A stretch of DNA of 64,000 nucleotides from Alistipes sp. dk3624 (lineage in GTDB: Bacteria > Bacteroidota > Bacteroidia > Bacteroidales > Rikenellaceae). Shown here piece by piece: positions 26,517-46,205 of this stretch. The stretch is taken from positions 1,860,001 through 1,924,000 of the forward strand of contig NZ_CP045651.1 in NCBI RefSeq assembly GCF_009557455.1, in the 5' to 3' direction. Positions within the stretch are counted from its first letter, which is position 1; each line of letters opens with the position of its first letter. The translations under genes and the position numbers were made by a program. The notes beneath the pieces are model-generated. The model was given only the letters and a program-made list of their open reading frames with translations. It had not been told where the DNA came from and made no database searches.

Positions 26517-26538
26517 TCCCGCAAAAGCGCTCGAAACG

Positions 26539-27603: not shown

Positions 27604-27639
27604 TCCGCAGAGCCAATTATTAACCTAAAATAGATAAGG

Positions 27640-28920: not shown

Positions 28921-28957
28921 TTCCGCTGTCCGGAGATATTTAAAAAAAGTAAAATCG

Positions 28958-28981
28958 GGAGGGCGGCCATAGCCGCCCTCC
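28958..28981 (+). terminator. Terminator after the sugar permease gene
   Basis: Perfect 10-bp GC-rich stem GGAGGGCGGC / GCCGCCCTCC with a CATA loop and CGCTATTTT after it, 37 bp past the permease stop. The next gene starts 17 bp later, so read-through into it is possible. Confidence 0.65.
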
Positions 28982-28997
28982 GCTATTTTCGAGAACG

Positions 28998-30821
28998 ATG
29001 AGAAAATTATTTTTTATAAGTATCGTGGCGGCCGCTCTGGTTTTTTGGTCGGAAAGGTCGTCCGCACAGGCGGTCGAGAGCGACCAGTGGGCCGCGACGG
29101 ACGGTCTCGGCCGCGCTTTGCCCGGGCGGGAACAGACCCGCGCCCGCAGAGACGACCGCAAAGTGGCGATGTTTTACTGGACGTGGCACACCAGTCCGAT
29201 TACCGACTACCGGCGGATCGGCAACATTACGCAGATTCTCCGCGAACATCCCGAGGCGATCGACGATTACGACCACCCCGCCTGGGATATCGGCGGAAAT
29301 TCTTATTTCTGGGACGAGCCGCTGCTGGGGTATTACAAGACGACCGACCCGTGGGTGCTGCGCAAACATGCCGAAATGCTGGCCGATGCCGGTGTGGACG
29401 TCGTGTTTTTCGACTGTACGAACGCTTCCCTTACCTGGAAATCTTCGTACGACGTATTGATCGACGTCTGGACGAAGGCGCAGGGGGACGGCGTGAATGT
29501 GCCGAAGATTGCGTTCATGCTGCCGTTCGGGCCTGTGGATTGGTCGCTCGTTTCGCTGCGCCAGCTTTATGAGGATATTTACAAGCCGGGCCGGGCCGAA
29601 AACCTTTGGTTTTACCTGCACGGCAAACCCTGTATCATGGCTTATCCGGACAACCTGACCGATTCGCCCGAAGACCGGACGATCCGCGATTTTTTCACGT
29701 TCCGTCCCGGTCAACCCGACATCGTGGACGGCCCCGGGCGTCCCGACCAGTGGGGTTGGCTCGAAACCTATCCGCAGCATAAGTTTGTCGAACGTCCGGA
29801 CGGCGGCTGCGAAGAGATGGTGGTCTGCGTGGCGCAAAATGCGAACGATGCCAGCGGCGGCCACTGCTGTGCTTTCAATGCGCCGGGAACTTACGGGCGC
29901 AGTTATACCCAACAGCGCGGGCAGGATACCCGCGAGGATGCTTACCTGTACGGATTGAATATCCAGGAGCAGTGGGATTATGCGCTGCAGTGCGATCCCG
30001 ACCTGATTTTCGTTACCGGCTGGAACGAATTCATCGCCGGGAAGCACATCGGCTGGCATCCCGCCCGCCCCTATTATCCGTTTGCATTCCCCGATCAGTT
30101 CGACTGGGAACGCAGCCGCGATATCGAACCGGTCAAGGCGTGGGGCGATAAGGGCGATGCCTATTACATCCAGTTGGTCGACAATATCCGCCGTTACAAG
30201 GGCGTTTCGGAGTCGCAGGCGGTGTCGCAGCCCCGGAGCTTCCGGATCGGCCGTTTCGACGGTTGGGACGGCGTATCGCCCGATTTCAGGCATTATCCGG
30301 GCAATACGATGCACCGGAATCACAAAGGTCATGCGAACATGTTTTATACCAATACGACCGGGCGCAACGACATCGTGGACGCGAAAGTGGCCCGCGATCG
30401 CAGGTACGTTTATTTTTACGTCGAAACCGCCGATAAGCTGACCCCGTCGACCGACCGCAACTGGATGATGCTGTTCATTGACGTCGACCGTGACAAAGCG
30501 ACCGGATGGGAGGGGTACGATTTCGTGCTGAACTACGAAAAGCCGCAGGACGGCAAATCCGTATTGTCCCGCCATAGCGGCGACGGCTGGAATTGGGAGC
30601 GCGCCGCGGAGGCGGATTATGCCGTCGACGGCAACCGGATGGAGATTCGGATACCGCGTTCGTTGCTCGGTGAGTTCGGAAAGTCGCTGAACATCGAATT
30701 CAAATGGAGCGACAACATGCAGGAAGAGGGGAATATCATGGATTTTTACGTGAACGGCGATGCGGCCCCGGGCGGCCGGTTCAATTTTGTTTACGACGAG
30801 CGTGCCGGGCAGAATCGCTAA
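28998..30821 (+). CDS. Secreted GH71/99-like protein with C-terminal CBM9-like domain (paralogue E)
   Basis: A 607-residue secreted protein: signal peptide to about residue 25 (MRKLFFISIVAAALVFW to SSAQ), then a catalytic-type domain to about 420, then a beta-sandwich domain to the end. The first domain shares FYWTWH, YYKTTDPWVLRKHAEMLADA, DVVFFDCTNA, FFTFRPGQPD and VTGWNEFIAG with four minus-strand paralogues. The WNE motif and overall pattern recall GH99/GH71 enzymes. The last domain (VARDRRYVYFYVETADKL, NWMMLFIDVDRDKATGWEGYDF) resembles CBM9/DOMON folds. It is the most divergent copy and stands apart on the plus strand behind the sugar-permease operon. Activity is unknown. Confidence 0.78.
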   Translation: MRKLFFISIVAAALVFWSERSSAQAVESDQWAATDGLGRALPGREQTRARRDDRKVAMFYWTWHTSPITDYRRIGNITQILREHPEAIDDYDHPAWDIGGNSYFWDEPLLGYYKTTDPWVLRKHAEMLADAGVDVVFFDCTNASLTWKSSYDVLIDVWTKAQGDGVNVPKIAFMLPFGPVDWSLVSLRQLYEDIYKPGRAENLWFYLHGKPCIMAYPDNLTDSPEDRTIRDFFTFRPGQPDIVDGPGRPDQWGWLETYPQHKFVERPDGGCEEMVVCVAQNANDASGGHCCAFNAPGTYGRSYTQQRGQDTREDAYLYGLNIQEQWDYALQCDPDLIFVTGWNEFIAGKHIGWHPARPYYPFAFPDQFDWERSRDIEPVKAWGDKGDAYYIQLVDNIRRYKGVSESQAVSQPRSFRIGRFDGWDGVSPDFRHYPGNTMHRNHKGHANMFYTNTTGRNDIVDAKVARDRRYVYFYVETADKLTPSTDRNWMMLFIDVDRDKATGWEGYDFVLNYEKPQDGKSVLSRHSGDGWNWERAAEADYAVDGNRMEIRIPRSLLGEFGKSLNIEFKWSDNMQEEGNIMDFYVNGDAAPGGRFNFVYDERAGQNR

Positions 30822-30916: not shown

Positions 30917-33900
30917 CTATTTTTCGTAGGTAACGCTCTCGATAACGACGGGGCCCATCAAACCTGCCTTTTGCAGCGGGGAATCCGCTGTCCACGGGCT
31001 GCACGGCGTCCATGTCGTGCGTTGTGCTTCGGGCAGTTTTTGGTCGCCGATCAGGCGATTCACCCAAGTGTTTACCACTTCGATTTCCAGTTCGTTGTCG
31101 CCTTCTTTGACAAAGTCGGTGATGTCCAGTTCATACGGAGCCGTCCATACGCCGCCGGCATCCTGTCCGTTGACCTTCACGCGGGCCATGGCCACGAAGT
31201 CGTTCAGGTTGATCAGGATGTTCTCGTCGGTCGGGGCTTTGTCCAGTTTGAAGTTGGTCTTATAGGTGGCCGTACCGGAGTAATATTTGATCTTGTCGTC
31301 GGCGTTGGTCGACCAGTCGGTCAGCGATTCGAATACGACCGGTTCTTGCGGGCCGCGTACCTTGTCGGCGAAATCGACCGTCCACGGGCCTTTCAGATCG
31401 GCGATCTGGGCCGGAACCGGGAAGTTGGCTGCCACGTCGGTCGACGAAGCGGCACCCGCTTTGTCCTTGAACACGATGAACATGCTTTCGTACGGAGCCA
31501 TTTCGAGCGGAACGGCCGTAGCGCCCTGTTTCTGCTCGTAAGCGGGCAGTTTGCGTATCACGCCGGTGGTCGGGGCCCACAGTTCGGGCTGCATACCGGT
31601 TACGCGGAATTCCGGCGTAACGACGATCGTTTCGTCGCTCTGGTTGCTTACGAAATAAATTTCGGCATTGTCCAGCGTGCGGTGTCCGTAGTGTACCGGC
31701 GCGCCTTCCGGAATGTTGAGGTCGGGGATGCAGTCGATCGTGGCGAAGGCTTCTTCCATCGTCATGCCGTTTAGGATCATGCCTTTGCCCAGTTTGCGCG
31801 ATTTGACGTTCACGCCGTCCACGTCGCCCCAGATTTCGGCGGCCATCGCTTTCACCTGCTGGTCGGCGGCCGGCTGATTCTGCAGGCTCGGCGAGCGGCT
31901 TGGGGCCGGGCCCATCACGACGGCGCCTTTCTCGATCAGTTCTTTGATCTTGGCCAGCAGTTCCGGACGCATCGTTTCGAGTTTCGGCAGCACCAGGATG
32001 CGGTATTGCGTACCGTGCGGCAACGTGATCTTACCGTCTTTCACGTCCATGTACTTTTCGATCACTTCGGCGTTCATGTAATCGAACTGGTAGCCGGTCG
32101 GAAGGGCCGGGTCGACGATACCGGTCATCTTCGGAGCGTCTTCGCCGATGAAATAGGCTGCGTCGGCTACGTTCAGACCCTGTTGCAGCATGAAGTTCGC
32201 GCGCTTGAGGTACGTGAGGTAGTTGTCGATCTGCGAGAACCAAGTGTTGTGGCGGTTGAATTCGTTGCCGAACCAGGCGTTGACGCCCGGGAGCCGGTCG
32301 TCCGGCTGCGTGATGTAGACGTGCAGCAGCGTGTTGTTGATGCCTTCGGCGAAGAAACGGTCGCCGCGCTGTTTGATCACGCCCGGGTAACGGGCGTACG
32401 AATTGCCGGCGCAGGTGTTCGATTCGGCCGAGATTTTCGTCTTGCCGTAGATATGGCCGCAGGACGAAGCGGCGCGGTTTTCGATGTCGCCCAGTTCGCC
32501 TTCGCTCCAGAACTCGCCGCCGATCTCGTCGGACTGGCCGCCGTACATCAGGAATTCGCCGGGGAAGCCCCAGTGACCGTAGTTTTCGAGCCAGGTATGC
32601 AGCCCGTGTTGATGGCTGACGTCGCGCAGACCGCCCACATAATCATAAGCGACCTTGTCGGCGATCATCCGGCGCACGTCCCACAGGAAACGGTCGGAGG
32701 CCTCTTCGCTGCCCACTACGATGCCGTTGTATACCGGCAAGTAGGGGGTCGGGTCGTAACCGTAGCGGGTCTTGAACTCTTCGATCATGCCGTCCGTGAA
32801 GTTCTGTCCGCCGGTTTCGTAGCTGTCCTGCACCACGACTTTGAACGTCTTGCGGTCTTCGGCCGGGATGCGGCGTAGGATTTCGCCCATGTGAGCATCG
32901 AAATGACTGGCGATGTGTTCGCGGCTCATTTTGTCGGTTTCATAACCGGTCGCTTCGGGCGCGGCGGGAGAATTGGTCGTCCCGGTCGGAGTCATACCCA
33001 TGCGCAGGATTACCCATTCGCCTTCCGGAACATCCCATGTCAGCGTGCCGTCGGCAGCCAGGTATTGCGAGATGTCCTGTACCTTCGCGGGATCTACCAT
33101 CAGCGCGGCGTCTTCCACAGCGGGCTGTACCGGCCATTGATAGTCTTTCCAGTACGGCAGCGGAGTCGGGTGCATCTTCGCCAGCGTCTTTTCGCTGAAG
33201 CGTTCTACGCGCGGAGCGGCTGCCAGAGCCACTTCGGCCAAGCCGCTGCCTGCATTGGCGCCTTTGATGATTACCCGGAAATCGGTTCCGGTCGTGGCCG
33301 GGATCGATACGACCACCGGTGCGAATTGGTCGAATCCGACGTTCAGCGCGGTATTCGTGCGGTTGATGTCGAATTTCGACAGCGTGCGGTAGTTGTCGCC
33401 TTCTTTAACTTGCAACTCGCCTTGTGCGCCCAACGGGTGCTCGGTGGGTTTTACGGTCAGGCTGCGCGCCGTAAACGGAGCGTTGGCTTTCAGGTCGATC
33501 GTAATTTCGCCGCCCTTCGGGATGGCGATTCCGCTTTTCTGGTCGCCGTCGGTGATTTTCGTCAGGTCGGCCACTTTCGGCGTCGAGGTGATCGTCCCGT
33601 TCGACGCGTTCAGCGTGAGCTGGTCGTCTTTCGGCACCGGGTAAGCGATGACGCGTACGTCCTGGAAAGAGTCGGTCGGCTGTACGAGCTTGGCGTTAAA
33701 CTTTTGCGGGCCTTTGGCGCGCGTTTCCGACGAAGCGAGATAACGCATCGCCTGGTCGGCTTTTACCCACGGGCCGCCGGACTGACTCCAGCCCGGAGAG
33801 TTAAAGATTCCGATTTCGATGTCCAGCTCGGTCGCTTTTTTCAGCGCGGCGTGCAGGATGTCCCACCACTCTTCGCTGAGCATTTTCACGTTGCCGTAGG

Positions 33901-34174
33901 GTACGTCGTCCTGGCCGATGTTGCCGATGAACGCGCGGTTGATTCCGGCTTTTTTCATCGACTCGAGGTCTTTGATAACGCCTTCTTTCGAAATGTTGTT
34001 CGAAATCCAATACCAGTAAACGCTGGTTTGGATCGAGTCGGGCGGGGTTACGAATCCCGAAGCGAGCGCTTCGTGGGAAACGTGTTGCGGACCCGACGCC
34101 CCTGTTCCGCAACAGGCGGCCAGCGCGGCTCCTGCCAAAGCGCAGGCGGAAAGTTTAAAAAGATTTTTTTTCAT
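30917..34174 (-). CDS. GH106-like lipoprotein, putative alpha-L-rhamnosidase
   Basis: A 1085-residue product, normal for GH106. The N-terminus MKKNLFKLSACALAGAALAACC is a lipoprotein signal with a LAAC lipobox. The catalytic part begins YWYWISNNISKEGVIKDLES and includes IGIFNSPGWSQSGGPWV, both typical of GH106. A C-terminal jelly-roll domain (LINLNDFVAMARVKVNGQDA, WTAPYELDITDF) recalls sugar-binding domains of GH2/GH106. GH106 enzymes remove terminal L-rhamnose, but the specificity here is inferred. It is the last gene of the operon, 17 bp after paralogue D, so it is likely co-expressed with the GH71/99-like array. Confidence 0.8.
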   Translation of the reverse strand: MKKNLFKLSACALAGAALAACCGTGASGPQHVSHEALASGFVTPPDSIQTSVYWYWISNNISKEGVIKDLESMKKAGINRAFIGNIGQDDVPYGNVKMLSEEWWDILHAALKKATELDIEIGIFNSPGWSQSGGPWVKADQAMRYLASSETRAKGPQKFNAKLVQPTDSFQDVRVIAYPVPKDDQLTLNASNGTITSTPKVADLTKITDGDQKSGIAIPKGGEITIDLKANAPFTARSLTVKPTEHPLGAQGELQVKEGDNYRTLSKFDINRTNTALNVGFDQFAPVVVSIPATTGTDFRVIIKGANAGSGLAEVALAAAPRVERFSEKTLAKMHPTPLPYWKDYQWPVQPAVEDAALMVDPAKVQDISQYLAADGTLTWDVPEGEWVILRMGMTPTGTTNSPAAPEATGYETDKMSREHIASHFDAHMGEILRRIPAEDRKTFKVVVQDSYETGGQNFTDGMIEEFKTRYGYDPTPYLPVYNGIVVGSEEASDRFLWDVRRMIADKVAYDYVGGLRDVSHQHGLHTWLENYGHWGFPGEFLMYGGQSDEIGGEFWSEGELGDIENRAASSCGHIYGKTKISAESNTCAGNSYARYPGVIKQRGDRFFAEGINNTLLHVYITQPDDRLPGVNAWFGNEFNRHNTWFSQIDNYLTYLKRANFMLQQGLNVADAAYFIGEDAPKMTGIVDPALPTGYQFDYMNAEVIEKYMDVKDGKITLPHGTQYRILVLPKLETMRPELLAKIKELIEKGAVVMGPAPSRSPSLQNQPAADQQVKAMAAEIWGDVDGVNVKSRKLGKGMILNGMTMEEAFATIDCIPDLNIPEGAPVHYGHRTLDNAEIYFVSNQSDETIVVTPEFRVTGMQPELWAPTTGVIRKLPAYEQKQGATAVPLEMAPYESMFIVFKDKAGAASSTDVAANFPVPAQIADLKGPWTVDFADKVRGPQEPVVFESLTDWSTNADDKIKYYSGTATYKTNFKLDKAPTDENILINLNDFVAMARVKVNGQDAGGVWTAPYELDITDFVKEGDNELEIEVVNTWVNRLIGDQKLPEAQRTTWTPCSPWTADSPLQKAGLMGPVVIESVTYEK

Positions 34175-34191
34175 AAAATTTTATGGATGAT

Positions 34192-36006
34192 TTATTTCGT
34201 GGTATAAACATAGTTGAACCGTCCTCCGGGCGCGGTGTCTCCGTTGACGTAGAAGTCCATGATGTTGCCGTTTTCCTGCATGTTGTCGTTCCATTTGAAC
34301 TCGATATCGACGTCGTCGCCCGTGAGGTTCATCAGTTGTTTTGCGATAGCCAGTTCGAGCTTGTTGCCGTTGACGGCGAACTTGCTCTCGCCGACGGCTT
34401 CCCATTCCCATCGTCCGCCGACGTTTTTTTCGATCACGGCTTTTTTACCGTGCGGACTCGTGCGATTGACGATGAAATCGTATCCGTTCCATCCGGTCGT
34501 TTTGTCGCGGTCGACGTCGATAAACAGCATCATCCAGTTGCGGTCGGTCGCCGGGGTCAGCTTGTCGGCGGTTTCGACGTAGAAGTAGACGTTGTCGGCG
34601 TCGCGTGCCACTTTCGCTCCGACGATGTCGTTGCGGCCGGTATTGTTGGTGTAGTACTGGTCATACCGTCCGCGGTGGTCGCGGTGCATGGTGTTGCCTT
34701 TGTACGATGCGAAGTAGGGAGCCACGTCGTCCCATCCGTCGGCCTTGCCGATCTTGACCGTCTTGGGGGCCGAAGCTTTTTCAGGAGCGTTCATTCCCTT
34801 GAATTTACGCACGTTGTCGACCAGTTGCAGGTAATATACGTCTCCTTTGTCGCCCCATCCGGCGTTCGGTTCGATATCGCGGCTGCAGTTCCAGTTGTAT
34901 TGGTCGACGAACGAGAACGGGAAGCCGTTCCAACTGTGCTCAGGTAGCCATTGTCCGGCGATGAATTCGTTCCATCCGGTGACGAATACCAGTTCCGGGT
35001 CGAGTTCGAACGCCCGGCTCCACTGTTCTTGGAAGTTATAGCCGTACAGATATCCGTCCACGCGCGGGTCGAATCCTTTCAGTACGCTGAAATTCCGTCC
35101 GTAAGCGTCTTTCACGTTGAAGGCTCCGCAGTGTCCTTTGCGGTCGGGAGAGGTGTTCTGGGCCACGCCGACCGAAACTTGTTCGAACCCGCCGTCGGGC
35201 CCTTTTATGTAGCCGTGCTGCGGATAGATTTCAAGCCAGCTCCACTGGTCTTTGCGCGTCGGGAACGGGCCGTCCACGTAATCGGGCTGTCCGGGCCGGA
35301 ACGTGAAGAAGTCGCGGATCGCCCGGTCTTCGGGCGAATCGGTCAGGTTGTCCGGATAAGCCATGATACAGGGCTTGCCTTTCCACACGAACCACAGGTT
35401 TTCGTAACGCCCCGGTTTGTAAACGTCTTTGTAGAGTTGGCGCAGCGATACCAGCGAGTGCGGAGCCGGGCCGAACGGCAGCATGAAAGCGATCTTCGGC
35501 ACGTTTACGCCGTCCTTTTGCGCCTGATCCCAGGTCTTCATTAACGCTTCGTACGAATCCTCCCAGGTAAGACTGCCGTTCGTGCAATCGAAGAATACGG
35601 CGTCCACGCCTGCGTCGGCCAGCATTTCGGCGTGTTTGCGCAATACCCAGGGGTCGGTCGTTTTGTAGTAACCCAGCAACGGCTGTTCCCAGAAGAAAAA
35701 GCCCGGACGTTTGTCGCCCCACGCCGGATGGTTGTAATCCTTCATCGCTTCGGGGTATTTGCGGACGATTTCGGAGATATTCTTCACCTGATAGGTGGTG
35801 TCGTCATTGCCTTGATGCCATGTCCAGTAGAACATGGCGATGAACTTGTCCTTTTTCTTGTCGCCGGCATCCTTGTATTCGCTGACTTTGCGTCCGAGCG
35901 CGTCGGTCGCCGCCCACGAATCGCTGTTGACAGTTTGTCCGAAAGCGCTTCCGCCGATCAAGCAGACCGTTCCGAGCGCCACAGTAAATTTGGTTAAGAA
36001 TTTCAT
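34192..36006 (-). CDS. Secreted GH71/99-like protein with CBM9-like domain (paralogue D)
   Basis: A 604-residue protein. The signal peptide MKFLTKFTVALGTVCLIGGSAFG ends before QTVNSDSWAATDALG. The catalytic-type domain (about 25-415) has FFWEQPLLGYYKTTDPWVL, AVFFDCTNGSLTW and VFVTGWNEFIAG with Glu347 as candidate catalytic residue. The CBM9-like domain (about 425-604) is encoded by DNA nearly identical to that of paralogues A and C. In GH99 the WNE glutamate is followed three residues on by a second Glu; here that position is Ala (E-F-I-A). The mechanism may therefore differ or the second acid lies elsewhere. It is the fourth gene of the array, 77 bp after paralogue C. Confidence 0.8.
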   Translation of the reverse strand: MKFLTKFTVALGTVCLIGGSAFGQTVNSDSWAATDALGRKVSEYKDAGDKKKDKFIAMFYWTWHQGNDDTTYQVKNISEIVRKYPEAMKDYNHPAWGDKRPGFFFWEQPLLGYYKTTDPWVLRKHAEMLADAGVDAVFFDCTNGSLTWEDSYEALMKTWDQAQKDGVNVPKIAFMLPFGPAPHSLVSLRQLYKDVYKPGRYENLWFVWKGKPCIMAYPDNLTDSPEDRAIRDFFTFRPGQPDYVDGPFPTRKDQWSWLEIYPQHGYIKGPDGGFEQVSVGVAQNTSPDRKGHCGAFNVKDAYGRNFSVLKGFDPRVDGYLYGYNFQEQWSRAFELDPELVFVTGWNEFIAGQWLPEHSWNGFPFSFVDQYNWNCSRDIEPNAGWGDKGDVYYLQLVDNVRKFKGMNAPEKASAPKTVKIGKADGWDDVAPYFASYKGNTMHRDHRGRYDQYYTNNTGRNDIVGAKVARDADNVYFYVETADKLTPATDRNWMMLFIDVDRDKTTGWNGYDFIVNRTSPHGKKAVIEKNVGGRWEWEAVGESKFAVNGNKLELAIAKQLMNLTGDDVDIEFKWNDNMQENGNIMDFYVNGDTAPGGRFNYVYTTK

Positions 36007-36083
36007 TTCTTGTAGGTTTTATTAAAATTAGGTTTTGATGGTGATTGTTTTGTCTGTGTCGATCCTGTATTATCAATGTTTAC

Positions 36084-37904
36084 TTACTTCGGTTTTGTGG
36101 TATAAACATAGTTGAACCGTCCTCCGGGCGCGGTGTCTCCGTTGACGTAGAAGTCCATGATGTTGCCGTTTTCCTGCATGTTGTCGTTCCATTTGAATTC
36201 GATATCGACGTCGTCGCCCGTGAGGTTCATCAGTTGCTTTGCGATAGCCAGTTCGAGCTTGTTGCCGTTGACGGCGAACTTGCTCTCCCCCGCTTTCTCC
36301 CATTCCCATCGTCCGCCGACGTTCTTTTCGATCACGGCTTTTTTTCCGTGCGGACTGGTGCGATTGACGATCAGGTCGTATCCGTTCCATCCGGTCGCTT
36401 TGTTGCGGTCGACGTCGATCAGCAGCATCATCCAGTTGCGGTCGGTCGCCGGGGTCAGTTTGTCGGCGGTTTCGACGTAGAAGTAGACGTTGTCGGCGTC
36501 GCGTGCCACTTTTGCGCCGACGATATCGTTACGGCCGGTGTTGTTCGTGTAGTAGCGGTCGCAATAACCGTAGTGATCCCGGTGCATCGTGTTGCCTTTG
36601 TACGATGCGAAGTAGGGAGCCACGCCGTCCCATCCGTCGGCTTTGCCGATCTTGATCGTTTGGGGCGCTGAAGCCTTTTCGGGCGGAGTCATCCCCTTGA
36701 ATTTTCGGACGTTGTCGACCAACTGTAGGTAATAGGCATCTCCTTTGTCGCCCCAGCTTTTGTTCGGTTCGATATCGCGGCTGTGATTCGAATCGAACAG
36801 ATCGACGAACGAGAACGGGAAGCCGTCCCATCCGTGTTCGGGCAGCCATTGTCCGGCGATGAATTCGTTCCATTCGGTGACGAACACCAGTTCCGGATCG
36901 AGTTCGAAGGCGCGGTTCCACTGCTCCTGGAAATTCCATCCGTACAGGTATCCGTCCACGCGCGGATCGAACCCGTTCAGCATACTGAAGTTCCGCCCAA
37001 ACGTCTCTTTCGTGTTGAATGCGTTGCAATGTCCTTTGAATGCGAACGAAGTGTTTTGGGCCAAACCGACCGAGACCTGCTCGAATCCGCCGTCGGGCCC
37101 TTTTACGTAGCCGTGCTGCGGGTAGATTTCGAGCCAACTCCACTGGTCGTTCCGGTTCGGGAACGGGCCGTTTACGTAGTCGGGCTGCCCGGGGCGGAAT
37201 GTGAAGAAATCGGCGATGGCCCGGTCTTCGGGCGAGTCGGTCAGGTTGTCCGGATAGGCCATGATCAACGGTTTGCCTTTCCAGCGGAACCACAGATTTT
37301 CGTAACGCCCCGGTTTGTAGACGTCGTTGTAAAGTTGCCTGAGCGATACGAGCGAGTTCGGCACGGCTCCGAACGGCAGTAAAAAGGCGATTTTAGGCAC
37401 CTTTACGCCGTCTTTCTGCGCTTGATCCCAGGTTTTCATCAGCGCTTCGTACGAATCCGAATAAGTCAGCGTCCCGTTGGTGCAGTCGCAGAAAACGACG
37501 TCGATTCCGGCGTCGGCCAGCATTTCGGCGTGTTTGCGCAACACCCACGGGTCGGTCGTCTTGTAATATCCGAACAACGGTTCGTCCCAGAAGAAGATGC
37601 CCGGTTTGGAAGTTCCCCAGGCCGGATGGTTGTAATCTTTCATCGCTTCGGGGTGCTGCCGGACGATTTCGGTGATGTTTTTGACTTGCGAGGTCGTGTC
37701 GTTACGACCCATGTGCCAGGTCAGATAGAAGATCCCGACGAACTTGTCTTTTTTCTTGTCGCCGGCATTTTTGTATTCGCGAACTTTGCGTCCGAGCGCG
37801 TCGGTCGCGGCCCACGAATCGCTGTTGACGGCTTGTCCTGCCGCCGCCGTTGCCAGCAGCAGGAGCATTCCGAGCGACAGACCGATTTTGATTGAGGTTT
37901 TCAT
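36084..37904 (-). CDS. Secreted GH71/99-like protein with CBM9-like domain (paralogue C)
   Basis: A 606-residue protein. The signal peptide MKTSIKIGLSLGMLLLLATAAAG ends before QAVNSDSWAATD. The same two-domain layout as its neighbours is seen. Differences in otherwise invariant positions are VFCDCTNG instead of VFFDCTNG and VTEWNEFIAG instead of VTGWNEFIAG. Both lie next to likely active-site residues, so this copy may have altered specificity. It ends in TTKPK, two residues longer than A and D. The 3' 440 bp are close to identical to those of A and D. It lies 27 bp after paralogue B in the operon. Confidence 0.8.
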   Translation of the reverse strand: MKTSIKIGLSLGMLLLLATAAAGQAVNSDSWAATDALGRKVREYKNAGDKKKDKFVGIFYLTWHMGRNDTTSQVKNITEIVRQHPEAMKDYNHPAWGTSKPGIFFWDEPLFGYYKTTDPWVLRKHAEMLADAGIDVVFCDCTNGTLTYSDSYEALMKTWDQAQKDGVKVPKIAFLLPFGAVPNSLVSLRQLYNDVYKPGRYENLWFRWKGKPLIMAYPDNLTDSPEDRAIADFFTFRPGQPDYVNGPFPNRNDQWSWLEIYPQHGYVKGPDGGFEQVSVGLAQNTSFAFKGHCNAFNTKETFGRNFSMLNGFDPRVDGYLYGWNFQEQWNRAFELDPELVFVTEWNEFIAGQWLPEHGWDGFPFSFVDLFDSNHSRDIEPNKSWGDKGDAYYLQLVDNVRKFKGMTPPEKASAPQTIKIGKADGWDGVAPYFASYKGNTMHRDHYGYCDRYYTNNTGRNDIVGAKVARDADNVYFYVETADKLTPATDRNWMMLLIDVDRNKATGWNGYDLIVNRTSPHGKKAVIEKNVGGRWEWEKAGESKFAVNGNKLELAIAKQLMNLTGDDVDIEFKWNDNMQENGNIMDFYVNGDTAPGGRFNYVYTTKPK

Positions 37905-37931
37905 AGGGTCGGGCGTTTTGCGGGCAAAGAT

Positions 37932-39740
37932 TTATTTCGCGGTATATACGTAGTTGAACCGTCCTCCGGGCGCGGTGTCTCCGTTGACGTAGAAGTCCAT
38001 AATATTGCCGTTGTCCTGCATGTTGTCGTTCCATTTGAATTCGATGTCTACCCCGTTTCCGGAGAGTCCCATCAGGGCCTTCGTTACGGCGAATTCGAGA
38101 CTGTTGCCGTTGACGGCGAACCGGCTTTCCCCGGCTTTCTCCCACTCCCAACGGTTCCCGACGTTCTTCTCGATCACGACCAGGCCGTCGTGCGGACTGA
38201 CTCGGTTGACGATCAGGTCGTACCCGTTCCATCCGGTCGCTTTGTCGCGGTCGACGTCGATCAGCAGCATCATCCAGTTGCGGTCGGTCGACGGGGTCAG
38301 TTTGTCGGCTGTTTCGACGTAGAAATAAAGGTTGTCTTTGTCGCGGGCTACTTTCGCTCCGACAATGTCGTTGCGGCCGGTGTTGTTCGTATAGTGCGTG
38401 TCGTCGTGTCCTTTGTGGTTCCGGTGCATCGTATTTCCTTTGTAAGAAGCGAAATAGGGCGCCACGTCGTCCCACTCGCCCGCTTTGCCGATCTCGATCG
38501 TCTTGGGAGCCGAAGCTTTCTCGGGAGGCGTCATGCCTTTGAATTTTCGGACGTTGTCGATCAGTTGCATATAGTATACGTCGCCCTTGTCGCCCCATCC
38601 GGCGTTCGGCTCGATGTCGCGGCTGCAATTCCAGTCGTACTGGTCGGGGAATGCGAACGGTTTATGGGGCTTGCTGGGCGGCCAGTTCTCGTGTTGCCCG
38701 GCAGTGAATTCGTTCCATCCGGTAACAAATACGATCTGCGGGTCGAGTTCGAAAGCGCGGCTCCACTGTTCCTGAAAATTCCATCCGTACAGGTAACCGT
38801 CCACGCGCGGGTCGAATCCTTTTTGCATCGAAAAACTGCGGCCGAAGGCTTTGGGCGCGTTGAACGCGTAAGCATGTCCTCCGTTCTCGGCGGTAGCGTT
38901 TTGCGCGACTCCGACAGTAACCAGTTCGAATTTGCCGTCGGGTCCCTTCACGTAACCGTGCTGCGGATAGTTTTCGAGCCATCCCCACTGGTCGTTGCGG
39001 CTCGGGCCGTCCACGTAGTCGGGTTGTCCGGGCCGGAACGTGAAAAATTCGGCGATTTCACGATCCGAGGGAGTGTCCAACAACGATTCGGGATAAGCCA
39101 TGATACAGGGTTTTCCTTGCCACACGAACCACAGGTTTTCGTAGCGTTTCCGCTTATAAATATCGTTGTATAACTGCCGGATGGATACCTGCGAAGCAGG
39201 AAGCGGGGCGAACGGCAGCATGAAAGCGATTTTCGGCACGTTCACGCCGTCCTTCTGGGCCTGATCCCAGACTTTCATCAGCGCATCGTAGGACGATTTC
39301 CAGGTGTAGGAACCGTTCGTACAGTCGAAAAATACGACGTCGACTCCTGCGTCGGCCAGCATTTCGGCGTGTTTGCGCAGCACCCACGGATCGGTCGTCC
39401 GGTAGTAGCCGAAGAGGGGCTGTTCCCAGAAACAGGTTCCGTGCTTCCAGGCCGGGTGGTTGTAGTCGAAAGCCGCTTCAGGGTATTTCCGGAGCGTTTC
39501 GGTGATATTCTGTACCGGTTTTCCGTCTCCGTCCGCGACGAAGTCGGTATGCCACGTCCAATAGAACATCGCTACGAGTTTGTCTTTTTTCTTGTCGCCG
39601 GCTTCCTTGTATTCGCGCACCTTGCGTCCGAGCGCGTCGGTCGCCGCCCACGAGTCGCTGTTGACGGTTTGCGCCGGCGCGCCGGCCGCCCATAGGCAGC
39701 ATATTCCGAGAAGAAGTCCGAGGCAAGTTAGGTTTTTCAT
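37932..39740 (-). CDS. Secreted GH71/99-like protein with CBM9-like domain (paralogue B)
   Basis: A 602-residue protein starting MKNLTCLGLLLGICCLWAAG, a signal peptide cleaved before QTVNSDSW. The frame stays open upstream into the end of paralogue A, but ATG 39740 gives the signal peptide and aligns with the other copies. It has FWEQPLFGYYRTTDPWVLRK, VVFFDCTNGSYTW and VTGWNEFTAGQ. Its CBM9-like domain is more diverged (DKDNLYFYVETADKLTPSTD, NRVSPHDGLVVIEKN). Only its last ~100 bp match the near-identical tract of A, C and D. It lies 38 bp after paralogue A. Confidence 0.8.
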   Translation of the reverse strand: MKNLTCLGLLLGICCLWAAGAPAQTVNSDSWAATDALGRKVREYKEAGDKKKDKLVAMFYWTWHTDFVADGDGKPVQNITETLRKYPEAAFDYNHPAWKHGTCFWEQPLFGYYRTTDPWVLRKHAEMLADAGVDVVFFDCTNGSYTWKSSYDALMKVWDQAQKDGVNVPKIAFMLPFAPLPASQVSIRQLYNDIYKRKRYENLWFVWQGKPCIMAYPESLLDTPSDREIAEFFTFRPGQPDYVDGPSRNDQWGWLENYPQHGYVKGPDGKFELVTVGVAQNATAENGGHAYAFNAPKAFGRSFSMQKGFDPRVDGYLYGWNFQEQWSRAFELDPQIVFVTGWNEFTAGQHENWPPSKPHKPFAFPDQYDWNCSRDIEPNAGWGDKGDVYYMQLIDNVRKFKGMTPPEKASAPKTIEIGKAGEWDDVAPYFASYKGNTMHRNHKGHDDTHYTNNTGRNDIVGAKVARDKDNLYFYVETADKLTPSTDRNWMMLLIDVDRDKATGWNGYDLIVNRVSPHDGLVVIEKNVGNRWEWEKAGESRFAVNGNSLEFAVTKALMGLSGNGVDIEFKWNDNMQDNGNIMDFYVNGDTAPGGRFNYVYTAK

Positions 39741-39778
39741 GGTTTGTTGGATTTTATTAGGGTTAGATTTTGAATGGG

Positions 39779-41584
39779 TTATTTCGTGGTATAAACATAG
39801 TTGAACCGTCCTCCGGGCGCGGTGTCTCCGTTGACGTAGAAGTCCATGATGTTGCCGTTTTCCTGCATGTTGTCGTTCCATTTGAATTCGATATCGACGT
39901 CGTCGCCCGTGAGGTTCATCAGTTGCTTTGCGATAGCCAGTTCGAGCTTGTTGCCGTTGACGGCGAACTTGCTCTCGCCGACGGCTTCCCATTCCCATCG
40001 TCCGCCGACGTTCTTTTCGATCACGGCTTTTTTTCCGTGCGGACTGGTGCGATTGACGATCAGGTCGTATCCGTTCCATCCGGTCGCTTTGTCGCGGTCG
40101 ACGTCGATCAGCAGCATCATCCAGTTGCGGTCGGTCGCCGGGGTCAGTTTGTCGGCGGTTTCGACGTAGAAGTAGACGTTGTCGGCGTCGCGTGCCACTT
40201 TCGCGCCGACGATGTCGTTGCGGCCCGAATTATTTTCATAAACGTTTCCTCCGTATCCTTTGTGCCGCCGGTGCATCGTATTGCCTTTGTACGATGCGAA
40301 GTAGGGAGCCACGTCGTCCCATCCGTCGGCCCGGCCGATCCGGATCGTTTTTGGGGCGGAAGCTTTTTCCTGCCTGTACATTCCTTTGAATTTTCGGACG
40401 TTGTCGACCAGTTGCAGGTAATATACGTCTCCTTTGTCGCCCCATCCGGCGTTCGGCTCGATATCGCGGCTGCAATTCCAGTCGTACTGATCGGGGAATC
40501 CCATATAATAAGGCCTGTGGGGCGGCCAATCGGCGACCCGGCCGGCGATGTATTCGTTCCATCCGGTGACGAACACCAGTTCCGGGTCGAGCTCAAGCGC
40601 GCGGTTCCACTGCTCCTGGAAATTCCATCCGTACAGATAGCCGTCCACGCGCGGGTCGAATCCTTTCAGCATACTGAAATTCCGCCCGAAAGTTTCCGGC
40701 TCGTTGAAAGAGCAAAAACGGCCTCCGCTGGCGAAACAGGCGTTTTGGGCCACTCCGACGGGCACTTCTTCGTAACCTCCTTCCGGTAGCGGCGCATATC
40801 CGTTCTGCGGGTAGAGCTCCAGCCATCCCCAGTTATCTTTTCGCTGCGGGCCGTTCACATAGTCGGGCTGTCCGGGACGGAAGGTGAAGAAATCGGCGAT
40901 TTCACGGTCTTCAGGCGTATCGCCGAGGTCTTCCGGCCGTGCCATGATGCACGGCTTTCCTTTCCAGACGAACCACAGTTCCCGGTGCCGTCCCGGTTTA
41001 TAGATGTCTTCGTAGAGCATGTGCAACTGCGGGCCGCCGTATTCCGGCGAACCGAACGGCAGCATGAATGCGATCTTCGGGGCTTTGACGCCGTCTTTTA
41101 GCGCTTCGGACCATACCTCCATCAGTACGTCGTAGGATTCTTTCCAGGTCAGTGTCAGGTTCGTACAGTCGAAAAAAACGACGTCGATCCCTGCGTCGGC
41201 CAGCATCTCGGCGTGTTTACGCAACACCCACGGGTCGGTCGTTTTATAGTATCCGAAAAGGGGTTGCTCCCAGTAGTACCGGCCCGGATTATTCCAGGCC
41301 GGATCGTCGAACGAGCGGATCGCTTCCGGGTGTTCGCGGAGTATCTCGGTCGTGTTGTTGACCTGGCTGCCCGGGGGCATGTCGTAGATGTGCCACGTCC
41401 AGTAGAACATGGCGACGAACTTATCTTTTTTGCGTTCCCCGGTTTCCCCGTATTCCCGAACTTTGCGTCCGAGCGCATCGGTCGCCGCCCAGAAATCGCT
41501 GTTTACGGATTGGGCCGCCGTGTTGCCGGCAAGTGCGAGACAGATTCCCGCGCATAGCGTGACACAAAGCAGATAGGTTTTCAT
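39779..41584 (-). CDS. Secreted GH71/99-like protein with CBM9-like domain (paralogue A)
   Basis: A 601-residue protein and first gene of the array. The start at 41584 (MKTYLLCVTLCAGICLALAG) gives a clean signal peptide; an in-frame ATG at 41602 only adds six residues. Catalytic-type motifs are YWEQPLFGYYKTTDPWVL, VVFFDCTNLTLTW and VFVTGWNEYIAGR (Glu344). Like the others it lacks the second GH99 Glu three residues after the first. Its C-terminal tract matches C at some variable sites and D at others. The 180-bp region upstream, towards the regulator gene, should hold the operon promoter; I could not find an exact TAnnTTTG there. Confidence 0.8.
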   Translation of the reverse strand: MKTYLLCVTLCAGICLALAGNTAAQSVNSDFWAATDALGRKVREYGETGERKKDKFVAMFYWTWHIYDMPPGSQVNNTTEILREHPEAIRSFDDPAWNNPGRYYWEQPLFGYYKTTDPWVLRKHAEMLADAGIDVVFFDCTNLTLTWKESYDVLMEVWSEALKDGVKAPKIAFMLPFGSPEYGGPQLHMLYEDIYKPGRHRELWFVWKGKPCIMARPEDLGDTPEDREIADFFTFRPGQPDYVNGPQRKDNWGWLELYPQNGYAPLPEGGYEEVPVGVAQNACFASGGRFCSFNEPETFGRNFSMLKGFDPRVDGYLYGWNFQEQWNRALELDPELVFVTGWNEYIAGRVADWPPHRPYYMGFPDQYDWNCSRDIEPNAGWGDKGDVYYLQLVDNVRKFKGMYRQEKASAPKTIRIGRADGWDDVAPYFASYKGNTMHRRHKGYGGNVYENNSGRNDIVGAKVARDADNVYFYVETADKLTPATDRNWMMLLIDVDRDKATGWNGYDLIVNRTSPHGKKAVIEKNVGGRWEWEAVGESKFAVNGNKLELAIAKQLMNLTGDDVDIEFKWNDNMQENGNIMDFYVNGDTAPGGRFNYVYTTK

Positions 41585-41773
41585 AATCAGTCGTTTGGAC
41601 ACCCGATCGGTTTGGTTTTTGTTGCAAACACAACATTTTCTGCTTGAAAACGGTCTACGTTTGCAGGCAAAAATCGTCCTGTTACGTATATTTTGAGCTA
41701 CAAATACCTCAATAAAGACAAAGTAAACAAATTTTTCAGACTTTCCCGGCGGTTTATGCGTTTTATTTGCAAA

Positions 41774-44700
41774 TTATTTCGCATGGGATCGTTTGTGCTC
41801 TTCCTTCCATTTCTCTTTGTAGTCTTTCGGACTCACTCCGAAATATTTTTTGAATGCGGTCGAGAAATGGGACTGTGTGCCGAATCCGGTCTGGTCGGAA
41901 ATTTCGGCGATGCTCAGATTTCCTTCGAGGATCAGTTTGGCCGCTTTTTTCATTTTGAAATTCCGTACGTAATCGTTCGGAGCCAGGCCGGTTAGGCTTT
42001 TCATTTTGCGGTAAAAACTGGTTCGGCTGAAACCCAATTCGACGGCGATCACGTTGATGTTGATATCCGGATTTTCGATGCTTTTGTCGATAAACGAATG
42101 CAATTTTTCCATGAAACGTTGGTCGATCTCCGGCAGGTTTCCCGGTATCCGGTCGTTGTCCCCGAAAGGTTCCTCCTGCTCGGCGTGCAGACCTTTGTCG
42201 CTGAAATAGGCTTTCAGCCGGTCCCTGTTGTTCGTTTGGCTGTGGATGACCGAAATCAGGTGGTCGGCGCGGAACGGTTTGTTAATATAGGCGTCGGCGC
42301 CGCAGTTGTATCCTTCGATCCGCTCTTCGATCCGGTTCTTGGCCGTCAGCAGGATGAAAATGGTATGGCTGAGTTGCGGATCGTTTTTAATGGTTTTACA
42401 CAGGGCGATCCCGTCCATTTCGGGCATCCGGATGTCGCTGATGATCATTTCCGGCATCTGTTCCCTGGCCATCTGGACGCCTTCCGTTCCGTTATAGGCG
42501 TGCAGTAGATCGTATTCGATGTGCAGAATTTCGTGCAGCAGCGTGTGAATCTGCGGGTCGTCCTCCACGATCAGTATCGTGCGTCCTTTGGGGGGCGAGG
42601 GCGTTTGAACGACGGGCGTGTCGAAATCCGCTCCGTCGGATTTTGTATTTTCAGGAAGGTTTCCGGGCGTCTGCTGTTCGAAAATTTCGTCGGCCGGGAA
42701 CGCCTCTCTACCGATTGGGATCACGAAACTCATAATCAGACCTTCCGTTTCGGAGAAGACGGCTTTTATCGATCCTTTCTGTCGGCAGACGAGCATTTTG
42801 GTGTAGTGGAGGCCGATGCCGCTTCCCGGAATCTCCTCCGTACTTTCCGTATTTTCCAACCGCCTGAACCGGTCGAAGATGTGTTCCAATTGCTGCGGAT
42901 CGATTGTTTTGCAGGAGTTCACGACTCGAAACTCCAGACATTCGGAACCGGGGGCGTCAAATTCGGGATACCGGTCGACCGCAGTGTTCCGGTCGATTTT
43001 CCGAAAGTCGATCGAAATACGACCTTGCCGGGGAGTGTATTTTACCGCGTTCGAAACGAGGTTGGTCAGTATTTTTTCGAGCACGTCTTCGTCCGTGTAG
43101 ATTTGCAGGGAGTCTTCCGTCAGGTGCAGCGAATAATCGATCTCTTTGGTATGGGCGCTGAAACGGAACGAGCCGGCCACATTCCGGATGAGCGGCACGA
43201 TATCCGTTTGCATGACGTGCAACGGGATCGTTTCGTTACCCATCCGGCTGAAATCCAGCAATTGGTTGACCAGTCGCAGCAGCCGGTTGGAGTTGTAGGA
43301 CAGAGTCGTTATCAGTTTATGCTCGTTGTCTTCGTTCAGCGCGCCATGCGCCAGCAGTTCGATGTTTCCGTTGATCAGGGTCAGCGGAGTCCGTAATTCG
43401 TGGGAGATGTTTCCGTAAAAGTCGATTTTCTGCTGGTTGATCTCCTGTTCGTGGAGTCGCTGTTTTTCGGAGAGGGCGAGCGCTTTTTTATTGTATTTCG
43501 TCCTGAAATACAGCTTGGTGACCGTAATAATGAAGGCCAGAACCAGCAGGATATACAGGGCGTAGGCCCAGCCCGTCAGCCATGGGGAAGCTTTTATCCG
43601 GATATCGATCCCGGTTTCCGGACTCCATTCCCCGTCCCCGTTCTGCACTTTGAGTTTGAACCGGTACTCTCCCGGCGGAACGTTCGCATAAGAGGCCCGC
43701 TTGTTGTTTCCCGCCTCTACCCAGTCTTTATCGAGACCGTCCAGTTTATACGCATAACGAAGTTTGTCCGAGTAATTGTAGTCGATGCCTGCGTAGTCGA
43801 TACTGAATGAATTTTGCCAGTGGTTCAACGTGATCTTCCGCTCGTAAGCGATGCTTTTGCCGATCGGAGCGTGCTTGCCGCCCGGAGTGACGCTCCGGTT
43901 CTGAATCTTAATGTCTTCCAATACGACGGATGGATGGTATCCGTTTTGCTTGACGTCGTTCGGATTGAAACAGTCGGTTCCCAAATTTCCACCGATGTAG
44001 ATCAGCCCGTCGGATGCGGTCAGCATCGCTCGTTCGAAAAACTGGGTGTTGTTCAGTCCGTCGGTTTCGTTGAAATTACGGAACCGTTTCGTTTTGGGAT
44101 CGAACCGTGACAGCCCGTTGGAGGTGGCGAGCCAGATACGTCCGTTTCCGTCTTCGGTCAGGGCCAGGATGTCGTTGCTCGGAAGTCCCTCCGTGTAGGT
44201 GTACTTTGTGATTTTCCGTGTTTTCGGATCGTATTCGAGCAGCCCTTTGTTGTAGCTTCCGATCCATAGGGAGCCGTTTTCGGATCGGCGGATATCGGTA
44301 CATGCGTTCAACGCGTGCATGTTGGCGAACTGACCCTCCGGGATCAACGGTTCCGGTTCGAAATCGCGGTGATCGATCGTGAAAACATTTTGCCCGTAGG
44401 CGGCGTAAACGATCTGATCGGCTTTATAGGGCTGGATCGTGGTGACCGTCACATTTTTTACGACCTGCGAAGGCTCGGCCGTCACATTTTGACCGAAAAA
44501 ATAAAGTCCGGAGAATCCCCCCGCCCAGATATTGCCCGACAGATCCTGTCCGATCGCCGTGATCGGCCCGAAATTTTGCAGCGTCGTAATTTCCGAAAAT
44601 CCGGACGCGTTGAGCTGTCCCACGATCAGGTTACGTCCCGTACTGATCCATATCCTGTTTTGAGAGTCGCAAAACAGGGCCCGTATCGAGTTGTTGCGGA

Positions 44701-45886
44701 TTGAAGCCAATGCAGGATGGTTGTTCTTTGTGAGATTTTTTACGGAACCGTTTTTCGAATAGCAATAGAGTCCGTCGTATTTGGAGCCGAACCAGATCCG
44801 GCCGAACCTTTTGTCTTCGCAAACGACGGTTACCGATTTCCCGTTCAGTGTGACCGAAGATATTTCCGGATGGTTGAACGTATTTTCCGCGGCGTTGACT
44901 TTGACGATGCCCTGTTCGAAAGTCCCGAGCCATAGATTTCCCTGCTTGTCTTTCAATGCACAGGTGATGTCGTTGTTTTGATCGTTTTTTTCGCTTTTTA
45001 CCGGGATGACGGCTATTTCGCCTGTGCTGATGCAATATTTATATGCATAATGTGTTGAGGTGATGAGGTAATTATTCTTGTCTATCAGTTTAATGCTGTT
45101 TATTTTTGCGGCAGATAGCTCCGGGTGTTTCCGTATGGATGGCGGAACGGAGGTCAGTTTCCTTCCTTTGATACTGTAAGCGAGTATTCCCTGGTCGGTT
45201 CCTATCCATATCTGTGAATCGCCGAATTTGGACAGGCAGTTGATTTCGATATAATCCGGGAGCGTGTACAATTCTGCCGTCTGGTCGTCGATGTTGTATC
45301 TGCCGAGCGCCGATCCGGTAGAGTATCCGATCCATAGATTCTGTAAGTCGTCTATAAACAGGGTATGCGCCCGTTGGGAAGCCCGGTTGCCGAACGGGAG
45401 GGGCATCGGAGACAAAATGTCCGTCGTGCGGTTCATTTTGAGAATTCCGTTGCTGTAAGTCGCGATCCATAAATTACCGGTGGAATCTTCGGCGAGATCG
45501 GTTACGAAGTATTCGTCTTGTCCGTTACTGATGGTATAGGGTGTTATTTTGTCGATGGTTAGATCGTATTTACTTAATCCCCTGGATGTCGCTATCCATA
45601 GATTTCCCGTTTTGTCCAAATGCAACCTGTTGATCCGGCTGGATTGGATAGACGTTTCGGGAGCCGATTCGTCCCGGAATAATTGCGCGTATTCATAGCC
45701 GTTGTACCGGTCTACACCGCGGGCCGTCGCAATCCAGAGATACCCCAAGGAATCCTGACAGATATCCCGTATCTGAAGGTTTGAGATCCGGGGTGAAAAA
45801 TGAAAATTTTGTTGGGCTTTTACATCCGTTTTTGACGTTATAAAAGCAAAAACGGACGTAAATAATAAAATGTATCTGCAATTCAT
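41774..45886 (-). CDS. Hybrid two-component system sensor/regulator (HTCS)
   Basis: A one-protein sensor, kinase and transcription factor, about 1370 residues, typical of polysaccharide utilisation loci. In order: signal peptide (MNCRYILLFTSVFAFITS), periplasmic two-component propellers with repeated DSxGNLWIAT-type blades (about 25-680), a Y_Y_Y domain (YAYKLDGLDKDWVEAGN), a membrane segment, HisKA with HELRTPLTLINGNIELL (His about 828), HATPase, a receiver domain with Asp about 1151 in ISDIRMPEMDG, and an AraC-type DNA-binding domain at the end. Longer starts (45973, 45910) lie before or almost on the promoter at 45924..45931, so 45886 is preferred. It probably senses a glycan fragment and activates the flanking operons. 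Confidence 0.92.
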   Translation of the reverse strand: MNCRYILLFTSVFAFITSKTDVKAQQNFHFSPRISNLQIRDICQDSLGYLWIATARGVDRYNGYEYAQLFRDESAPETSIQSSRINRLHLDKTGNLWIATSRGLSKYDLTIDKITPYTISNGQDEYFVTDLAEDSTGNLWIATYSNGILKMNRTTDILSPMPLPFGNRASQRAHTLFIDDLQNLWIGYSTGSALGRYNIDDQTAELYTLPDYIEINCLSKFGDSQIWIGTDQGILAYSIKGRKLTSVPPSIRKHPELSAAKINSIKLIDKNNYLITSTHYAYKYCISTGEIAVIPVKSEKNDQNNDITCALKDKQGNLWLGTFEQGIVKVNAAENTFNHPEISSVTLNGKSVTVVCEDKRFGRIWFGSKYDGLYCYSKNGSVKNLTKNNHPALASIRNNSIRALFCDSQNRIWISTGRNLIVGQLNASGFSEITTLQNFGPITAIGQDLSGNIWAGGFSGLYFFGQNVTAEPSQVVKNVTVTTIQPYKADQIVYAAYGQNVFTIDHRDFEPEPLIPEGQFANMHALNACTDIRRSENGSLWIGSYNKGLLEYDPKTRKITKYTYTEGLPSNDILALTEDGNGRIWLATSNGLSRFDPKTKRFRNFNETDGLNNTQFFERAMLTASDGLIYIGGNLGTDCFNPNDVKQNGYHPSVVLEDIKIQNRSVTPGGKHAPIGKSIAYERKITLNHWQNSFSIDYAGIDYNYSDKLRYAYKLDGLDKDWVEAGNNKRASYANVPPGEYRFKLKVQNGDGEWSPETGIDIRIKASPWLTGWAYALYILLVLAFIITVTKLYFRTKYNKKALALSEKQRLHEQEINQQKIDFYGNISHELRTPLTLINGNIELLAHGALNEDNEHKLITTLSYNSNRLLRLVNQLLDFSRMGNETIPLHVMQTDIVPLIRNVAGSFRFSAHTKEIDYSLHLTEDSLQIYTDEDVLEKILTNLVSNAVKYTPRQGRISIDFRKIDRNTAVDRYPEFDAPGSECLEFRVVNSCKTIDPQQLEHIFDRFRRLENTESTEEIPGSGIGLHYTKMLVCRQKGSIKAVFSETEGLIMSFVIPIGREAFPADEIFEQQTPGNLPENTKSDGADFDTPVVQTPSPPKGRTILIVEDDPQIHTLLHEILHIEYDLLHAYNGTEGVQMAREQMPEMIISDIRMPEMDGIALCKTIKNDPQLSHTIFILLTAKNRIEERIEGYNCGADAYINKPFRADHLISVIHSQTNNRDRLKAYFSDKGLHAEQEEPFGDNDRIPGNLPEIDQRFMEKLHSFIDKSIENPDININVIAVELGFSRTSFYRKMKSLTGLAPNDYVRNFKMKKAAKLILEGNLSIAEISDQTGFGTQSHFSTAFKKYFGVSPKDYKEKWKEEHKRSHAK

Positions 45887-45923
45887 CGTTGAAGGTTTCG
45901 GCAATTTCATATTCTTGATAGCA

Positions 45924-45931
45924 CAAAAATA
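45924..45931 (-). promoter_or_regulatory. -7 element of the HTCS gene promoter
   Basis: TATTTTTG on the minus strand, an exact TAnnTTTG match. With transcription starting a few bases on, ATG 45886 gets a leader of about 30 nt whereas ATG 45910 would get about 7 nt. The -33 element is not evident. Confidence 0.5.
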
Positions 45932-46205
45932 ATCATTCTTTGATAATTTTTTCGTTTTTGTTTCAAAAAACATTTTATCCTTTTATATATTATTGTTAAT
46001 AAGAGTTTTATGGATTATGCTTTTGACCAGAATTTAAATGAATATAGCCCGCATGGGTACAAGAATGAACAGTTTTTGAAAAAAATTGAAACAAATGAGT
46101 CTATTATTAGCTAATATTTGTAGAATTTCGTGCTATCGGAATTTTCTATAAAAATACGCGGGGAAAATTTGGTAAAACAAGAAAATTAAACCTAAATTTT
46201 TATCT

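Follow-up and report, generated by a model that had tools for sequence, protein, structure and literature searches.

The genome of Alistipes sp. dk3624 (G000) consists of one 3.02-Mb contig, and the window analysed here is a 64,000-nucleotide stretch of it (G000:C1:1860001-1924000). It contains an array of related genes, here called paralogues A to D (array 1), together with a more distant copy and two flanking genes:

39779..41584, minus strand: paralogue A, a GH99-like catalytic domain with a CBM9-like C-terminal domain
37932..39740, minus strand: paralogue B, a GH99-like relative and array member
36084..37904, minus strand: paralogue C, array member
34192..36006, minus strand: paralogue D, array member
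28998..30821, plus strand: paralogue E, a more distant, unhomogenised copy in opposite orientation that serves as internal control
30917..34174, minus strand: GH106 alpha-L-rhamnosidase-like gene downstream of D (Pfam PF17132, 763 bits)
41774..45973, minus strand: hybrid two-component regulator (HTCS) upstream of A, from its Pfam domains

The ATG at 41584 was adopted as the start of A, with a GTG at 41602 also possible, and B was taken to start at MKNLTCLGL, within a 715-aa ORF (37932-40079) that begins further upstream. Nine genomes of the genus were searched, G000 included, and five encode relatives at an E-value of 1e-20 or better; one genome per species was compared. The HTCS gene adjoins A in G003, G004 and G005, and the GH106-like gene adjoins D or a D tail in G001, G003, G004 and G005. 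A plus-strand row at window positions 25602-30821 (nucleotidyltransferase, aldose epimerase, MFS transporter and paralogue E) keeps its order in G003 and G005. Relatives of D occur in several Bacteroidota families and in two Kiritimatiellaeota MAG records, and in the genome collection the closest named relatives of the protein are Alistipes records. The leader before B (window 39741-39778) resembles that before D (36007-36083; matched by 0 of 500 shuffles), and B and D may derive from one duplicated unit that included the leader, though B falls with A in its catalytic part.

The family assignment of the catalytic part rests on a structure model of D:

34792..35928, minus strand: GH99/GH71-like catalytic domain of D (residues about 27-405; model pLDDT 87, pTM 0.90; PDB match 4acz)

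The model has a GH99/GH71-type barrel fold, with the GH99 structure 4acz as best PDB match (Z 18.6, rmsd 4.5, 270 aligned residues) and GH71 at a Z of about 15. When A, C, D and E were scanned with the Pfam GH99 profile (PF16317, cut-off 33 bits), C (21.8), A (15.7) and E (26.4) stayed below the cut-off and D had no match. As reference for the two catalytic-site glutamates of GH99, E333 and E336 in the B. xylanisolvens enzyme were used, as read from entry titles for the variants E333Q and E336Q; in a weak profile alignment the invariant E347 of D falls at the first of these positions and A350 at the second, so that the second catalytic glutamate may be missing. Because of the scores below the cut-off and this perhaps missing residue, we file the proteins as GH99-like and not as GH99. 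At the conserved WNE motif, paralogue C reads TEWNE and the other window paralogues TGWNE; among the proteins compared, the variant of C occurs otherwise only in L105, a relative from G003, and it may mark an altered active site.

The C-terminal beta-sandwich, modelled alone, is predicted to have a CBM9 fold, matching the CBM9 structures 1i82 and 7nwo at Z 9.2 (rmsd 3.8-3.9, 145 aligned residues). The nearest structures are Sas6 (Z 11.5), then 4jpq (9.4) and CBM9 (9.2); antibody-type structures score about 6 and other non-CBM9 sandwiches 8-11.5. The Pfam profile CBM9_1 (PF06452) matches two of 38 family members (best E 2e-4) and not D, and a profile of the C-terminal domain found no match among PDB sequences at E up to 1. 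The domain is accordingly filed as CBM9-like, with carbohydrate binding putative.

It is the 3' end of the genes, which encodes much of this domain, that is unusually alike among the paralogues:

39782..40225, minus strand: homogenised 3' tract of A, from the GRNDI motif to the last codon; it differs from C and D at 12-13 of its 444 nt
37935..38378, minus strand: patchily homogenised 3' tract of B; it differs from A, C and D at 71-81 of its 444 nt
36093..36536, minus strand: homogenised 3' tract of C, from nucleotide differences and pS
34195..34638, minus strand: homogenised 3' tract of D, from nucleotide differences and pS

Over these last 444 coding bases D and A differ at 13 sites, C and A at 12 and D and C at 25. 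Among A, C and D, the synonymous distance (pS) in 40-codon bins is 0.29-0.76 up to alignment codon 480 and 0.00-0.25 from codon 481 on. An earlier note on this DNA had described near-identical 3' tails behind diverged catalytic parts, with coordinates for D, C and A that are correct, and had named a synonymous distance near zero in the tract and high elsewhere as the expected support; this drop is found for the A/C/D pairs. In the first ~190 bp, where it had counted two differences between D and C, there are three such sites (D-A, two; C-A, one). B does share the 3' end, as the note had said, but not only the last ~100 bp, since a second low-difference patch lies 270-390 nt from the end (30-nt bins against A: 2, 0, 1 and 1 differences).

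Codons that encode the same amino acid in both copies give the same picture. Identical and different codons number 184 and 105 before codon 471 versus 124 and 3 at codons 471-613 for A-C (Fisher p=3.9e-16), 185 and 98 versus 120 and 7 for A-D (p=1.3e-11), and 239 and 114 versus 114 and 10 for C-D (p=2.3e-8). A strict run test without mismatches, on the codons common to A-D, was clear for A-C alone (30 of 5,000 shuffles) and not for A-D (2,373) or C-D (1,674). After this test had proved weak for most pairs, a best-segment permutation that allows mismatches was added; 0 of 2,000 shuffles reached the observed value for each of A-C, A-D and C-D, with best segments from codon 461 or 471 to 608-610. 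The signal was weaker for B-C (2 of 2,000) and A-B (9 of 2,000), and not significant for B-D (489 of 2,000) or for pairs with E (113-336 of 2,000). E differs from A-D by pS 0.34-0.96 across the whole tract and is not homogenised, and the SusC and SusD pairs in the window, used as a control, are 35% and 39% identical with pS 0.65-0.95 throughout and no homogenised stretch. Within the tract, the proposal that A is a mosaic of C-like and D-like sites was borne out codon by codon: A has the state of C at codons 488, 501, 516, 517, 522, 526, 533, 562 and 575 and that of D at codons 507, 542-545 and 609, while C shares most sites within codons 542-545 with B.

Directly upstream of the tract, each paralogue carries a 14-codon loop that departs from this uniformity:

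40226..40267, minus strand: loop of A (GYGGN type), left unhomogenised; its sequence differs from D at 26 of 42 nt, with few differences in the flanks on either side, and it follows orthology
38379..38420, minus strand: loop of B, paralogue-specific by sequence comparison
36537..36578, minus strand: loop of C, paralogue-specific by sequence comparison
34639..34680, minus strand: loop of D (RGRYDQYY type), a motif also found in D-type proteins of other Bacteroidota families

In 30-nt bins, D and A show 0-3 differences in the tract; the count rises to 21 at the loop and falls to 6 and 0 in the bins on its upstream side. Amino-acid identity between A and D of the same genome is 0.86 upstream of the loop, 0.36 in the loop and 0.98 in the tract for G000, and 0.91, 0.43 and 0.94 for G003; the average over 40 A-versus-D pairs is 0.73, 0.34 and 0.73. 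By type, mean loop identity is 0.79 among ten D-type proteins and 0.67 among four A-types. The homogenised zone thus flanks the loop on both sides, its upstream part being partly homogenised, and since the loop is conserved by type, homogenisation surrounds an element that follows the catalytic domain. Retention of the loop by selection is the natural reading, and low identity at the loop could also block conversion mechanically. The loop region is modelled with a pLDDT of 58-62 when the domain stands alone and of 80-83 in the full-length protein, an indirect hint that the loop may pack on the catalytic barrel.

Comparison between species separates the histories of the two parts. In G003, which has A and D, the two genes differ by pS 0.70-0.77 along the catalytic part and, starting at codon 431, by 0.34, 0.23, 0.06 and 0.32 in four bins for which G000-G003 orthologues give 0.45-0.69 (A) and 0.46-0.74 (D). 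Residues in the tracts are species-specific and those in the catalytic parts type-specific. In the catalytic-part tree, the A-types of G000, G003, G004, G005 and L045 form one group (100/100) with B as sister of the A clade (100/99). In the tract tree, G003_A, G003_D and G005_A are grouped (100/99) and the four G000 copies come together with moderate support (91/94). AU tests reject the four G000 copies as one clade for the catalytic part (p 1e-80) and an A-orthologue clade for the tract (p 6e-43), p-values that are not to be taken literally because the groups were picked after the alignments had been inspected. The A tail and D of G004 show no homogenisation (pS 0.58-0.65), and G001 has a single close copy, so that array 1 offers one clean between-species comparison.

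G003_A and G005_A have 76 identical and 30 different codons in the tract and 192 and 191 elsewhere (Fisher p 7e-5), a likeness beyond what within-species conversion alone predicts and possibly due to exchange between species. An A-type relative in a Porphyromonadaceae MAG (L045:17090-18574) groups among the Alistipes A genes and looks disrupted, being matched in two pieces; gene transfer is a possible origin. Across orthologue pairs (n = 5), pN is 0.12-0.17 in the C-terminal tract versus 0.06-0.10 in the catalytic part. The C-terminal domain is therefore the part that evolves faster between species while being uniform within a locus, and the catalytic parts are constrained. The earlier note's view that conversion homogenises the binding domain fits these data, but the catalytic domains are not free to vary as it had supposed, the A-type and the D-type each being conserved across species.

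A second array in the same genome (array 2; G000:C1:2960-2970 kb) holds five relatives of the GH99-like family, four of which are just 35-39% identical to the fifth, D-like gene. Two neighbours in it, L129_7675 and L129_9534, differ by pS 0.55 and pN 0.25 before the linker and by 0.05 and 0.02 after it. The boundary is sharp and lies slightly before RRYKGVEP, and 46 silent codons agree in a row (0 of 5,000 shuffles); here the loop has been overwritten as well. In its catalytic part, 7675 clusters with genes of G003 and G005 and leaves 9534 outside (100/100), and an AU test on this part rejects a clade of the two neighbours (p 8e-6, for a group likewise chosen after inspection), from which it follows that one C-terminal domain was overwritten after those lineages split. 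Between 7675 and G003, pN is 0.25 in the C-terminal part and 0.11 in the catalytic part. Array 2 adds an independent case in the same genome. The array-2 pairs of G003 and G005 show no homogenisation; with the G004 array, they mark homogenisation as episodic. Among 78 same-locus pairs examined in loci from L039 on, five have at least 70% identity (three in L093, one each in L096 and L129), and in all five the final 150 codons have a lower pS than the sequence ahead of them. It is less than half the earlier value in L129 (0.07 versus 0.47) and one L093 pair (0.24 versus 0.52) only, and in none of the other 73 pairs (one of them without a value). In L093 and L096, where loops differ between copies, the signal is weaker than elsewhere and suggestive.

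At the level of sequence, three things are established: a signature of conversion, the fact that it recurs, and the pattern at the loop. Recurrent gene conversion, that is, concerted evolution of the CBM9-like C-terminal domain among A-D, is very probably the explanation. Over the tract, paralogues within a genome are closer than orthologues between species (A-D in G003, A-D in G000, and array 2), and the tracts are bounded, with flanks that have their own history (30-nt bins, loop island, array-2 boundary). The repeated conversion that the earlier note had proposed is thus supported by one informative species pair and a second array in G000. Under this explanation, A, B, C and D would be tandem paralogues of long standing within a Bacteroidota polysaccharide-utilisation locus, and their GH99-like catalytic domains would have separated into types long ago. 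Non-reciprocal conversion between neighbouring direct repeats, through intragenomic homologous recombination, would repeatedly overwrite much of the CBM9-like domain, which would thereby evolve in concert within the species while the 14-codon loop inside it stays with the catalytic type. Selection would keep the loop because it functions with the catalytic domain, and the presumed benefit of conversion would be a common ligand for the C-terminal domain.

Patch-wise conversion is favoured over a single crossover because of the several switches inside the tract, and the same observation bears on repeated unequal crossing-over, in which array expansion and contraction through the repeated tract would have homogenised the tails. 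Copy number does vary (four in G000, an A and a D in each of G003 and G004, a single close one in G001), as does gene number in array 2 (five, three and three in G000, G003 and G005), and the similar leaders before B and D imply that whole units were duplicated at some time. Crossovers alone, however, yield single-switch hybrids, and the old catalytic parts, together with mostly unrelated spacers, speak against recent turnover of units; we consider this route unlikely and infer RecA-type conversion instead. Far less probable still is collapse of repeats during assembly, which the earlier note had named as a potential refutation. Contigs of two MAGs (G003 and G005; L120, L121, L125 and L126) do break off within the tract, their ends overlapping exactly over 84 and 72 nt, and the tract repeats may split the locus in short-read assemblies, but G000 is one contig with differing, mosaic copies, and A and D of G003, where the same pattern recurs, also differ.

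Two further explanations have next to no probability left. The nearly identical tails would suit a recent whole-gene duplication followed by fast diversification of the catalytic part, but catalytic synonymous sites are also highly diverged and other species have A and D types too, so that synonymous distances and orthology refute it. Synonymous constraint, from codon use, RNA structure or overlapping function, might keep the tract alike, and around codons 481-520 pS is indeed slightly reduced, in comparisons between species and with E as well; it is excluded as the main cause because orthologues differ by pS 0.45-0.74 in the tract, and E is not alike.

Gene conversion thus remains the preferred explanation, and what it does for the enzymes is open to a wider, tentative reading that we regard as possible but not probable. 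In such modular concerted evolution, recurrent conversion would keep a fast-changing carbohydrate-binding domain uniform among the enzymes of a tandem GH99-like array, so that binding changes spread to neighbours, and selection would keep the loop that reaches the catalytic domain and sets enzyme specificity. The locus is a natural experiment in which recombination and selection divide the labour within one protein, with one module common and one short element private. The 14-residue loop is a candidate specificity determinant, and in such loci C-terminal sequences can lead to wrong orthology calls and interrupt short-read assemblies.

Gene conversion as such is known; what is new in the finding is the loop-sparing pattern. 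Our search of the open-access literature found no report of binding-domain conversion in polysaccharide-utilisation loci. Concerted evolution by gene conversion has been described in mammalian gene pairs (PMC2720389), where, as here, paralogues are closer than orthologues over stretches of genes; unlike those pairs, the present genes are bacterial and glycosidase-like, and the effect is confined to a single domain, within which a type-specific loop interrupts it. In Mycobacterium tuberculosis, antigen loci are reported as gene conversion hotspots (PMC13061034), likewise through intragenomic conversion between bacterial paralogues, but the title of that work speaks of hotspots of diversity, whereas here the visible result is the uniformity of one domain. 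In the multimodular glycoside hydrolases of Caldicellulosiruptor, CBM3b modules are more than 99% identical and GH48 domains identical (PMC6892212), and, as in our array, a near-identical module is combined with different catalytic domains in one genome; what is described there concerns whole modules of multi-domain enzymes, whereas the Alistipes genes show patchy tracts, a spared loop and recurrence in a second species.
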